From Cellvibrio sp. KY-YJ-3 (GTDB lineage Bacteria > Pseudomonadota > Gammaproteobacteria > Pseudomonadales > Cellvibrionaceae), in NCBI RefSeq assembly GCF_008806955.1, contig NZ_CP031727.1, forward strand, positions 4,106,001 to 4,170,000: a stretch of DNA of 64,000 nt, read 5' to 3'. Shown in pieces: positions 28,359 through 49,875 of the stretch. Within the stretch, counting starts at the first letter, position 1. Every line of letters begins with the position of its first letter. Both the position numbers and the translations under genes were made by a program. A model generated the notes under the pieces. That model saw only the letters and a list, made by a program, of their open reading frames with translations. It searched no databases and was not told the origin of the DNA.

Positions 28359-29162
28359 TCAACGAAGTTTCAATTGCTCCAATCTTTCCAATAATTTTTG
28401 ATTTTCTATTTCGATATGTTTGTAAAAATCCACATCCGACAGCTGCGAAGCAGCCGCTTCATCAATTACTAACACCACCTGTTGATGCAACTGTAAGGCC
28501 GATGCCGGGCAAGCGGCGGTTAATGGCCCTTCGACTGTTGCTTTAATTGCCTCAGCTTTATTTTCACCCGTGGCGAGTAGCACCACTTTTTTTGATTCGA
28601 GAATTGTACCTATACCCATGGTGATGGATAGATGGGGCTGGTATTCGTCTGCGCCAAAAAAACGGGCGTTGTCTTCGATAGTCGCGCGCGTTAAGGTTTT
28701 TACTCGCGTGCGAGACATAAGTGACGAAGATGGCTCATTAAAACCAATATGCCCGTTGCGACCAATGCCGAGTAATTGAATATCAATACCACCTTTGTGT
28801 TTAATGGCCGCTTCATAAATTTCGCAAGCGTTAAACGGATCTTGCGCATCACCCGGCGGAACATGAGTTTGCGCCTTGTCGATATCAACATGATCAAACA
28901 ACTGTTGATTCATAAAATAGCGATAACTTTGCGGATGGCTTGATGGCAAGCCAAGGTATTCATCCAGATTAAAACTGCTCACACGTCTAAATGAAACCTG
29001 AGCATTTTTATAAGCAGCAATCAACTCTTTATAGAGTGCAACCGGCGTGGAACCCGTCGCCAAACCCAAAACTGAATCAGGTTTTTGATTAATTTGTTGG
29101 ATAAAAATATCTGCACCATAACGCGCAACAGCGGCAGCATCTTTTAAAATTACAACTTTCAT
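28359..29162 (-). CDS. nagB: Glucosamine-6-phosphate deaminase
   Basis: Converts GlcN6P to fructose-6-phosphate and ammonia, joining aminosugar breakdown to glycolysis. 267 residues, the classical NagB type rather than the SIS-type NagB-II. Motifs: [25 protein letters not shown] and [14 protein letters not shown]. Last gene of the nagK-nagP-nagX-nagA-nagB run. A structured repeat element (29206-29313) fills the gap from nagA. Confidence 0.97.
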
Positions 29163-29205: not shown

Positions 29206-29313
29206 GGTCAGGCAGCGGATTTTGTTGGCAGACTGTCGGAGACAGGGATGTCGACGACAAACCTACATGGATGTATTCACGGCGTGTCTGCCAACAAAAT
29301 CTGCTGCCTGACC
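29206..29313 (-). repeat. Dispersed stem-loop element, copy A (short core)
   Basis: Arms of 28 bases at 29206-29233 and 29286-29313 are complementary at 27 positions; the one exception is a G/T pair. Read on the minus strand, the core begins AGACACGCCGT (29279-29289), contains CGTCGACA (29249-29256) and ends TGTCTCCGAC (29235-29244). The same three blocks in the same order occur in copy B at 48732-48892, but the arm sequences of the two copies are unrelated. It begins eight bases past the nagA stop, inside the nag operon. Not a simple terminator: no T-run follows. Confidence 0.85.
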
Positions 29314-29320
29314 GGTCTAA

Positions 29321-30478
29321 CTACAGGTGTACCTGCAGATCACCCGCTACCCAGGTATGGGTTACACGATAATCATCAGTAAAATGAACCAGATCCGCGC
29401 GATAACCGTTAGCGATACGCCCCAAATAATCATCCACCTGCATAAATTGCGCAGGGTAAAGCGAGGCCATGCGCAGGCTCTCCGCCAACTCCACACCAAC
29501 CCAGGTAGTGTTCAGACGCACCGCATCTATCATCCCAATCGCACTACCCGCCAAACGCCCTTCCGCATTTACCAGGCAACCATCTTTTTCATAAATAGTT
29601 TCGCCATAAATTTGAAACGATTTTTCCGGCGAGCCGACAGTCGACATAGCGTCCGTCACTAAATACATTTTGCCTTTGGGTTTTGCAGAGTAAGCAATGC
29701 GCGCAGAAGCCGCATGCACGTGATAGGTATCAATAATAATTCCGCACCAACTGTTAGCGTCCTCAAGTGCAGCCCCCACGACTCCGGGTTCACGACCAGT
29801 AGTCGGGCGCATCGCGTTATACAAATGCGTAAATCCGGAAAGCCCCTCTTTAAGAGCACACACTACCGATTCGTAATGCGCATCCGTATGACCCGCACAG
29901 ATAACTACACCGGCCGACGTTAATTGTTTAATTTGACCGGGCGCCGCATGCTCGGGCGCCAGCGTGAGCATCACTTTAAAATCGTGCTGACCTTTTACCG
30001 AGGCCACCAACCAATCAATATCCGCCTGCTCCATTGCGCGAATGTAGCGCTCGTTGTGCGCACCGCGACGTGCCATATCAAAAAACGGCCCTTCCACATG
30101 CACGCCAAGAACACCTTTCATACCAGCAGCAACCGCATCCGCCACCGCTTTTACACCGGCCTGATGCACCTCACGGGTATCGCTAATCAAGGTTGGCAGT
30201 AATGACGTAGTGCCTGTTGGGCGATGACCATCGAGAATGGTTTGAATGGCACTGACACTGGTATCGTTAGTAAAAAATGCCCCGCCGCCGCCATTCACTT
30301 GCAGGTCGATAAAACCGGGCGCCAGCACACCACCCGCCAGCAGTGTTTGCGGAATGGATGAATCCAGTTGCGCACGTGGTAGCAGCGCGTCAATTTTTTC
30401 GCCCGCGAGTACCAGCGCGTAGTCATCCAGAAATTCTTCGCCGGTAAAAATGCGTGCACCGACCAAAGCTTGTTTCAT
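29321..30478 (-). CDS. nagA: N-acetylglucosamine-6-phosphate deacetylase
   Basis: Hydrolyses GlcNAc6P to GlcN6P and acetate. 385 residues, amidohydrolase fold. Seen: metal/active-site blocks GVHVEGPFF, CAGHTDA, THLYNAM, and the catalytic Asp in LVTDAMSTVG; the N-terminal beta-domain start PGFIDLQVNGGGG. It follows nagX by 47 bases and is followed by the structured element and nagB. Confidence 0.97.
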   Translation of the reverse strand: MKQALVGARIFTGEEFLDDYALVLAGEKIDALLPRAQLDSSIPQTLLAGGVLAPGFIDLQVNGGGGAFFTNDTSVSAIQTILDGHRPTGTTSLLPTLISDTREVHQAGVKAVADAVAAGMKGVLGVHVEGPFFDMARRGAHNERYIRAMEQADIDWLVASVKGQHDFKVMLTLAPEHAAPGQIKQLTSAGVVICAGHTDAHYESVVCALKEGLSGFTHLYNAMRPTTGREPGVVGAALEDANSWCGIIIDTYHVHAASARIAYSAKPKGKMYLVTDAMSTVGSPEKSFQIYGETIYEKDGCLVNAEGRLAGSAIGMIDAVRLNTTWVGVELAESLRMASLYPAQFMQVDDYLGRIANGYRADLVHFTDDYRVTHTWVAGDLQVHL

Positions 30479-48009: not shown

Positions 48010-48085
48010 TCTGCTAGACTGCGCGGCCTTTTTACCTTGACTCCACCTCAAGTGGAGCCATAAATCCCTAAGATGAGATTTGATT

Positions 48086-48706
48086 ATGTCTAACCAATTC
48101 AAGAGCGTTGAAGAACTCGTGAGCTACGGCATTGGCCGTCAAATGGGCGATCAATTGGCCAGCAACCCGTTTGATGGTGTATCACCTGAAGCAGTAGCCC
48201 AAGGCGTTGTGGATGCATTGAAGGATGTTGCAATGCCTTACAGCAATGAAAAGATGCAAGCCGCCTTTGAAGAGATTAACAACCGTATGCAAGCCAAAGC
48301 GGCTGAACAGCACAAGGCGTTGGCAGGTGCTGGCGAAGCTTTCTTGGCAGAAAACGCCAAAAAGACGGGCATTACTGTGACTGCATCTGGTTTGCAATAT
48401 GAAGTAATTACACAAGGCTCCGGTGCAGTTCCAACCGCGACTTCTAAAGTAAAAACCCATTACCACGGCACTTTGATCGACGGTACTGTGTTTGACAGCT
48501 CCGTGAATCGCGGTCAGCCAATCGATTTTCCGGTGAACGGTGTTATTGCCGGTTGGACCGAAGCATTGCAATTGATGCCAGTCGGCTCCAAATGGCGTTT
48601 GTATGTTCCGCATAACCTCGCCTACGGTGAGCGCGGTGCAGGTGCCAGTATTGCGCCTTTCTCAACGCTGATTTTTGATGTTGAGTTGATTGATATTGTT
48701 GGTTAA
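48086..48706 (+). CDS. fklB: FKBP-type peptidyl-prolyl cis-trans isomerase
   Basis: 206 residues: an N-terminal helical dimerisation domain (about 1-90) and a C-terminal FKBP domain with VKTHYHGTLIDGTVFDSS, GVIAGWTEALQLMPVGSKW and NLAYGERGAG. No signal peptide, so cytoplasmic like E. coli FklB/FKBP22. The ATG at 48086 is used rather than the TTG at 48080. A long structured repeat follows the stop. Confidence 0.94.
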   Translation: MSNQFKSVEELVSYGIGRQMGDQLASNPFDGVSPEAVAQGVVDALKDVAMPYSNEKMQAAFEEINNRMQAKAAEQHKALAGAGEAFLAENAKKTGITVTASGLQYEVITQGSGAVPTATSKVKTHYHGTLIDGTVFDSSVNRGQPIDFPVNGVIAGWTEALQLMPVGSKWRLYVPHNLAYGERGAGASIAPFSTLIFDVELIDIVG

Positions 48707-48731
48707 TTAATTCGTACCAACGTCGAGCTCC

Positions 48732-48892
48732 AGCAGGAGTTGCGGAGGTGTTTCCGAGACACGCCGTAAATCCTTCCCTGGAGGCTCGCCGTCGACAGCC
48801 GCATTTGTTCCATACAAATTGCGGCACTTCCCACATCCGTGTGGGTCGTCCATGTCTCCGACGGTCTCAGAAACACCTCCGCAACTCCTGCT
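48732..48892 (+). repeat. Dispersed stem-loop element, copy B (long core)
   Basis: Arms of 29 bases at 48732-48760 and 48864-48892 are complementary at 28 positions. The core starts AGACACGCCGT (48757-48767), has CGTCGACA (48790-48797) and ends TGTCTCCGAC (48853-48862), the same blocks as copy A. Between the last two blocks copy B carries about 50 extra bases that form two small hairpins (GCCGCA.../...TGCGGC and CCCACA/TGTGGG). It starts 26 bases past the fklB stop, in the same orientation as that gene. Confidence 0.85.
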
Positions 48893-48957
48893 TCATCAGC
48901 TTCGATAAGCTTTACAAGCACCCCATTATTCACTGTTAATTTGTTAACGGATTTTCC

Positions 48958-49875
48958 ATGTGGTTTAAAAATTTACGTTTGTATCGTCTCACCGAACAGT
49001 GGACTATTTCCGCTGAAGAATTAAATGAAAAGCTTGCCGAATTTTGTTTTAACCCCTGCGGCAACCTGGACCCAATGCGCTATGGTTTTGAACCACCGCT
49101 GGGGCGTCACGGCAGTGAGTTTGTACACGTGACTAACGGTTACGTGATGATTTGCGCTAAGAAGCAGGAAAAAATTCTGCCCGGTGGCGTGATCAAAGAA
49201 CAGCTGGAGGAAAAGGTACAAGCGATTAAAGACGCCGAATCGCGCCCGGTTGGTCGCAAAGAGCGCGACACGTTAAAAGACGAAATTATTTTTTCGCTGC
49301 TACCGCGCGCCTTTACCCGTTCGTCGCTGGATTACGCCTATATCGCGCCGCAGGAAGGGCTGATTGTGGTGAATTCTTCATCTGCAAAACGCGCGGAAGA
49401 TTTGCTTAGCAAATTGCGCGAAGCACTGGGCAGTTTGCGCTGTTTACCTATCGCACCCAAAAATATTCCCACCCAGGTCATGACCCATTGGTTGCGTGAG
49501 AGCGAAGCACCGCACCAGTTTGAATTGGGTGAAGAGGTTGAACTACAAGCCGCAAAAGATGGCCGCGTAGTCCGCTGTAAAAAACAGGATTTAACCGCAA
49601 GCGAAATCCGCAATCATTTGGAAAGCGGAATGCACGTAAGCAAAATCGCGCTGGTGTGGAAAGAATCCATCAGCTGCATTATCGATGATCAAGTCGCAGT
49701 GAAGCGCTTGAAGTTTGAAGATGTGATTAGCGACAAAGCCAACGAACGTAACCCGGAAAGCAAAGCGGAGCAATTTGATGCCGACTTCGCGATTATGGCG
49801 ATGGAGTTAAAAAACTTTATCTCCGCGTTGCTGGCAGCCTTTGGTGGTGAAGCTGATTCAATGTTAGATAATTAG
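48958..49875 (+). CDS. rdgC: Recombination-associated protein RdgC
   Basis: Ring-forming DNA-binding protein that limits RecA action at replication forks. 305 residues, standard size. Signatures: the start MWFKNLRLYRLT, GFEPPLGRHG, LLPRAFTRSSLDYAYI, and the DADFAIMAMELKNFI block near the C-terminus. The promoter should lie within the 65 bases between the repeat element and the start. Confidence 0.96.
   Translation: MWFKNLRLYRLTEQWTISAEELNEKLAEFCFNPCGNLDPMRYGFEPPLGRHGSEFVHVTNGYVMICAKKQEKILPGGVIKEQLEEKVQAIKDAESRPVGRKERDTLKDEIIFSLLPRAFTRSSLDYAYIAPQEGLIVVNSSSAKRAEDLLSKLREALGSLRCLPIAPKNIPTQVMTHWLRESEAPHQFELGEEVELQAAKDGRVVRCKKQDLTASEIRNHLESGMHVSKIALVWKESISCIIDDQVAVKRLKFEDVISDKANERNPESKAEQFDADFAIMAMELKNFISALLAAFGGEADSMLDN

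Follow-up and report, generated by a model that had tools for sequence, protein, structure and literature searches.

In the 64-kb window (the whole stretch of DNA that was analysed), a long hairpin, copy A, occupies the gap between nagB (28359-29162, minus strand) and nagA (29321-30478, minus strand), and a second, copy B, lies between an FKBP-type isomerase gene (48080-48706, plus strand) and rdgC (48958-49875, plus strand). The core reads on the minus strand in copy A and on the plus strand in copy B, which in both cases is the sense strand of the flanking genes. Below, CATCC strand denotes the one on which the core reads, and GGA strand the opposite one. In copy A, two arms of 28 nt separated by 52 nt (29206-29233, the 3' arm on the CATCC strand, and 29286-29313, the 5' arm; 96% complementary) enclose two small hairpins delimited from the sequence and the counted structure: hairpin 2 (29234-29259), with AGGGAT in its plus-strand loop, and hairpin 1 (29261-29283), with a GTGAA bulge and ATGGAT in its plus-strand loop. 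In copy B, arms of 29 nt (48732-48760, 5', and 48864-48892, 3'; 97% complementary) are 103 nt apart and enclose hairpin 1 (48763-48785), placed from sequence and fold, and a hairpin 2 (48787-48863) that is larger by about 51 nt, the core measuring 103 nt compared to 51-52 nt in 13 regular copies. The extra stretch lies in the loop of hairpin 2, at approximately 48798-48848, and contains two small hairpins. Related insertions were found at the copy B locus in genomes G002, G008 and G013, and in hairpin 1 in G004. Small hairpin modules were also seen within the loops of other elements (L236, L241, L162 and, in G012, L121 and L122), and the loop looks like a favoured insertion point for them. Copy A folded with z-scores of -10.28 on one strand and -11.01 on the other, and the plus strand of copy B with -11.23; none of 200 shuffles was as good in either copy. 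At the curated gathering score, Rfam gave no match within the window. An earlier note on this DNA had described copies A and B as sharing an ordered core enclosed by nearly perfect stems of 28-29 bp, with no sequence in common between the two stems. The three core blocks do occur in the same order in both copies and the stems are nearly perfect; the statement about the stems was nearly right, the innermost AGAC/GTCT being common to both.

A core pattern allowing up to 3 mismatches had 17 matches in the own genome (G000, 4.49 Mb in a single contig) compared to 5 for a reversed-pattern control, and all 17 copies carry complementary arms of 21-31 nt; copies A and B are therefore not a product of chance. 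The 13 regular copies align across 92 columns. The model R1 gave 23 matches in this genome at E-values up to 10, corresponding to the 17 pattern copies and six others, of which five resemble a second subfamily and one is borderline (E = 0.009). In all, R1 matched 25 of 37 genomes (the own genome and relatives within one order), one of which, G025, is included on a single weak match. With 116 candidates scored per genome, the R1 counts are lower bounds: at least 90 in G012, 82 in G016 and 75 in G022; G009 gave none, though it belongs to the same genus. A scan of species genomes found at least 120 stretches; among the 80 listed were matches from Stenotrophomonas, Xanthomonas, Marinobacter, Microbulbifer, Rheinheimera, Arsukibacterium, Halopseudomonas, Oceanisphaera and Alcanivorax. 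Stenotrophomonas maltophilia SJTL3 carries at least 123 elements (123 of 150 scored candidates) and Xanthomonas hortorum at least 150 (150 of 150). Among readable copies from species genomes, 99 of 113 had an arm score of at least 9 and 14 fell below. Copies used for counts were those with the core pattern and an arm score of at least 9, armless copies having been dropped (these 14 of 113 in one set). In G012, the second subfamily has conserved inner and outer parts around a block of 7-9 bp that is variable yet complementary. The expectation of similar cores in other gammaproteobacteria is thus supported, and the proposed family of structured elements, whose arms differ between copies yet pair, has been extended from two copies to a dispersed family larger than first stated. 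Two outcomes had been named that would have spoken against it, a core confined to the two places and further copies with unpaired arms; neither was observed, although there are the 14 of 113 copies with low arm scores. These are dispersed, chromosomal, non-coding elements of about 100-150 bp.

Close pairs are a recurrent arrangement in some genomes. Among the matches listed, all 24 pairs in S. maltophilia, 227-340 bp apart, and 10 of 13 in G012 were convergent, and X. hortorum had one pair; in the cases inspected, the arms of the two members differ. The middle segments of the S. maltophilia pairs, compared at 20 loci of which 4 were without result (the pattern missed the partner), have other repeats in common and no gene by eye. 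In SJTL3 (L383-L402), the convergent pairs enclose other palindromic repeats (GGTAGGTGTCGACC- and GGGGTCAGATCC-like) and form composite blocks. The core pattern had no match in viral contigs, and searches with copy A had none in phages or plasmids. A search of plasmids with a Xanthomonas copy gave three weak partial matches; of the two inspected, one has a haloalkane dehalogenase gene on one side and an ISAs1 transposase gene on the other, and the second adjoins a symporter gene. No description of the element was found in the text of openly licensed PMC papers, though one may exist elsewhere, and the exact core strings led to no paper among them. Titles and abstract openings of the literature on dispersed repeats, REP, RAYT/TIR, CsrA with REP and Cellvibrio repeats held nothing on it.

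The arms vary almost without restriction while remaining paired. Watson-Crick pairs made up 7186 of the 7755 arm positions in 306 distinct arm sets. With the 13 regular copies arranged as a three-way junction of the outer arms and two hairpins, pairing was found in 93.6% of cells compared to 69.0% in shuffles, and 24 of 35 pairs had changed on both sides. The covariation score was 0.645, against 0.179 for shuffles and 0.075-0.115 for slid versions; as the structure was derived from the same 13 sequences, the score favours it over the slid versions. The 20 arm pairs comprise 260 cells, of which 241 paired and none was G.U on the CATCC strand, and core hairpin 2 covaries too. Combined, these values support the idea, put forward from copies A and B, that some force preserves pairing.

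The kind of change was examined in nearest pairs and at shared loci. In seven nearest pairs of subfamily II (21 copies kept, compared to 31 rows in an earlier listing), there were 12 double changes, 10 of them transversions, and 2 one-sided changes; among the other nearest pairs compared, 9 further cells differed with a Watson-Crick pair on neither side. These counts involve no phylogeny. A route through G.U intermediates would yield mainly transitions, and the predominance of transversions therefore argues against it. At shared loci, two compensated changes separate L003 from L042 (G000 and G007), a G-C pair is swapped for C-G between L013 and L044 (a locus that by eye resembles lipB-lipA), and a compensated swap occurred in hairpin 2 between L138 and L412 of two Stenotrophomonas genomes. 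Five Stenotrophomonas loci were checked; four have a clear counterpart in SJTL3 and all four counterparts are occupied, one of them (L183/L413) by a different element. L182/L411 has unchanged arms and L248/L410 two fresh one-sided arm changes. Since such one-sided changes are found and arm mismatches at the rdgC locus are common to four species, correction of the arms is not immediate.

The remaining mismatches have a strand polarity. Isolated arm mismatches read on the GGA strand of the 306 arm sets were GT 227, AG 95, GG 33, AC 25, AA 11, CT 8, TT 5 and CC 4; on the CATCC strand, A.C (215) and G.T (28) were among those counted in 226 copies. The bias of GT over AC holds in three genome sets (86:6, 166:23 and 71:7). 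This indicates either that folding of the GGA strand is protected or that C mutates more on the GGA strand. RNA nearest-neighbour energies give a contrast of 4.06 kcal/mol between AC and GT and of 0.02 between CT and AG; DNA energies give 1.77 and 1.42 kcal/mol, respectively. Because both contrasts are seen and only the DNA energies predict both, the mismatches favour single-stranded DNA over RNA as the folded molecule, with RNA still a serious rival. The same pattern would also arise if C simply mutated at a uniformly raised rate on the GGA strand, an alternative that the near-equal log ratios (2.21, 2.47 and 2.11) would fit well.

The turnover of the element was followed at orthologous sites. 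Between G000 and the sister species G007, 15 of the 23 model matches were comparable, with flanks 76-94% identical, the other 8 lying outside the G007 stretches compared. The same element is present in G007 at four sites (L003, L006, L014, L016) and the core is in the opposite orientation at three (L011, L013, L001). The flipped core of L011 sits between homologous arms (22 of 28 bases alike; 13 of 19 outside the common inner end), whereas arm similarity is weak at L013 and L001, where an independent insertion is possible. L034 is of subfamily II in G000 and of type I, also reversed, in G007. At the other seven sites (L002, L004, L005, which is copy A, L007, L010, L012 and L036), G007 has no element. 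As the missing stretches exceed the hairpin (at L004, L007 and L036) and the ends of the unit are undefined, loss from G007 and gain in G000 look alike; gain, in addition to loss, would probably explain the empty sites. At the copy A site, among 12 genomes with both flanks aligned, the element was found only in G014 besides the own genome. The 11 empty sites measure 53-143 bp and have longest perfect stems of 5-9 bp compared to 16 in G000 and G014; that of G007 perhaps retains a remnant of one arm. The FKBP-rdgC site is occupied in 14 of 21 genomes by eye; the element is reversed in G018 and G006, the outer arms of G018 resembling those of other species and the arms of G006 being unlike them. 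A plain hairpin, shorter than the element, takes its place in G012 and G016. Two further observations concern the copy B site. The 251 bp around copy B (48707-48957; L289) are identical letter for letter in G007, with gene flanks at 89.9% and 93.0%, which suggests either recent exchange or strong constraint. In G009, G017, G005, G020 and G003 (L301, L302, L303, L306 and L307), the site holds a different long repeat with GGA/TCC-capped hairpins.

Genomic context was analysed for 226 copies: neighbouring ORFs allowed 144 to be classed, and a crude caller placed 59 within an ORF. In gaps between co-directional genes, sense orientation of the CATCC strand outnumbered antisense by 59 to 33 (p=0.009), and close to the 3' ends of genes by 78 to 42. 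With dnaA placed, the element showed no overall preference for a replication strand (111 vs 86, p=0.087; among the matches listed, which were 89 of at least 123 in G037 and 61 of at least 150 in G038, with members of close pairs dropped), and because only G037 is biased, replication strand was not used as support. A Y1/RAYT transposase was considered as the mover and found no support: Y1_Tnp had no match in the element-rich genomes G000, G001, G016 and G018, and only one of 35 fetched Y1 loci carries the element. Identity with the self-complementary TIR family that PMC3733652 describes in S. maltophilia seems unlikely, since different inverted repeats were found at all four Y1 loci of SJTL3. 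At one of them, L348, self-complementary GGGGTCAGATCCCTTTCGC repeats lie on both sides of the Y1 transposase gene and may be the TIR family of that paper. Among the 14 largest clusters of neighbouring ORFs, no recurrent recombinase or parent transposon was seen by eye.

Our tentative preference is for a REP/MITE-like element that would be recognised as a folded single strand and whose arms would be kept matched by template switching together with selection. The unit would consist of a long, fast-changing stem topped by a three-way junction that holds two small hairpins. Selection would act on the folded strand with GGA in both loops, most likely as single-stranded DNA bound by a protein that would read the loops and the junction. 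Arms would stay complementary because the recogniser needs the folded GGA strand, and they would copy each other by template switching at replication, which would rewrite both sides simultaneously and could flip the core between the arms. Template switching is described in PMC8794818 as making and keeping hairpins, rare loop inversions included. This explanation is weakened by the lack of a mobilising enzyme, the lack of an overall replication-strand bias and the practical absence from plasmids and phages, as well as by arm correction that is not immediate, the C-mutation alternative and the undefined ends of the unit.

The main rival, because its loop motifs match CsrA/RsmA sites, is an RNA in which the transcribed GGA strand would form a candidate two-site CsrA/RsmA module, acting as decoy or regulator, with selection on the RNA keeping the arms paired; we hold it to be somewhat unlikely. 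On the GGA strand, hairpin 1 has ANGGAN in all 319 copies (A and GGA being partly required by the pattern), and hairpin 2, which is outside the pattern, has it in 279 of 319 compared to 10.7% in letter-shuffled regions, the remainder being 29 copies with CAGGA, 10 with another GGA and one with no GGA; a spacing of 23 nt between the two GGA is kept in 271 of 319 copies. Loops of this kind, ANGGAN or CAGGA on hairpins, resemble the CsrA SELEX consensus RUACARGGAUGU and the RsmE hexaloop ANGGAN (both as given in PMC7652899), and G.U is the commonest mismatch of the GGA strand. CsrA was found in 36 of 37 genomes. However, it is equally present with or without the element, and G002 has 10 elements and no CsrA match (in an 85% complete assembly). 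An RNA is further opposed by the AG/CT bias, which RNA energies do not predict, by double changes that are mainly transversions, by core flips at shared loci, and by the GGA strand being antisense more often than sense between co-directional genes, copies A and B included. A combined possibility, unlikely in our judgement, is that a self-spreading module with two near-optimal candidate CsrA/RsmA hairpins, in tens to hundreds of copies per genome across gammaproteobacteria, might double as a genome-wide CsrA decoy or supply new CsrA targets at those copies that have a transcribed GGA strand.

Reading from the other strand, a cis-acting mRNA element (3'-end stabiliser, processing site or terminator) would suit the location near gene ends with the CATCC strand oftener sense, and the shorter plain hairpin at the copy B locus of G012 and G016. 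Pairing is less protected on the CATCC strand, orientations are opposite at shared loci and copies A and B lack a T-run after their arms; we regard it as distinctly improbable. Gene conversion or recombination between copies, swapping whole hairpins with no need for template switching, would account for L183/L413, where the Stenotrophomonas flanks match closely and the element differs in core and arms, and for the exchange of subfamily at L034; single compensated pairs within near-identical elements (L138/L412 and L003/L042) speak against it, and we give it very little credence. Insertion of the core into pre-existing palindromes such as terminators, with arms made of target DNA, is the least credible of the alternatives: unrelated arms in many copies and the plain hairpins at the copy B locus speak for it, but the eleven empty copy A sites have no stem above 9 bp, and arms common to many copies in S. 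maltophilia and in subfamily II indicate that arms travel with the core.

Compared with all of these, recognition as folded single-stranded DNA is still the reading that we prefer. The family provides hairpins by the hundred whose arms are nearly free in sequence yet stay paired, with strand polarity, flips and presence or absence among close relatives, and is well suited to asking how genomes maintain pairing in hairpins. It makes testable, on real genomes, whether long hairpins are maintained by template switching or by selection, and whether the mismatch spectrum separates single-stranded DNA from RNA as the folded molecule. The CsrA-like loops, if functional, would link a dispersed repeat to a global regulator.

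Among known systems, REP/BIME/REPIN sequences are likewise palindromic repeats of small size, present on the chromosome in many copies, frequently as inverted pairs and near gene ends, and according to PMC3733652 REP dimers can lie within long palindromes whose letters vary but pair. The present element is longer, at 92 or more aligned positions compared to the 20-40 bp of a REP palindrome, and has a conserved two-hairpin junction cap and variable arms. It lacks a constant unpaired GTAG/CGTC tag at the base of its stem: where some copies read GTAG, others have GGGG or GGAG, and these letters pair. It is also unlinked here to RAYT genes of the GTAG type. With MITEs it has in common presence or absence at orthologous sites (7 of 15 empty, loss being possible). 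As to the conserved terminal inverted repeats of a parent transposon and the target duplication of a MITE, the arms here are variable, no parent was seen by eye among the 14 largest neighbour clusters and the ends of the unit are undefined. Integron attC sites, according to PMC2727003, also have little sequence conservation, are recognised as a folded single strand and have a strand preference. Their ends are conserved (AAC...GTT) and their tip is variable, whereas in the present element conservation is found at the tip and variation in the outer arms, and no cassette array was seen. RNAs of the CsrB/RsmY type share the ANGGAN/CAGGA loops on small hairpins; they are encoded by few trans-acting genes per genome (PMC7652899), compared to tens to hundreds of dispersed copies here. 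The R0, R1, R2 and R6 repeats of P. fluorescens are of similar build, at 80-177 bp with inverted repeats of 24-43 bp around a core, but by their description in PMC2718517 they combine identical inverted repeats with a core of variable size, the reverse of the conserved core and variable arms found here. The description that fits best is that of a variant among dispersed palindromic elements, one whose cap is conserved and whose arms are free in sequence but matched.
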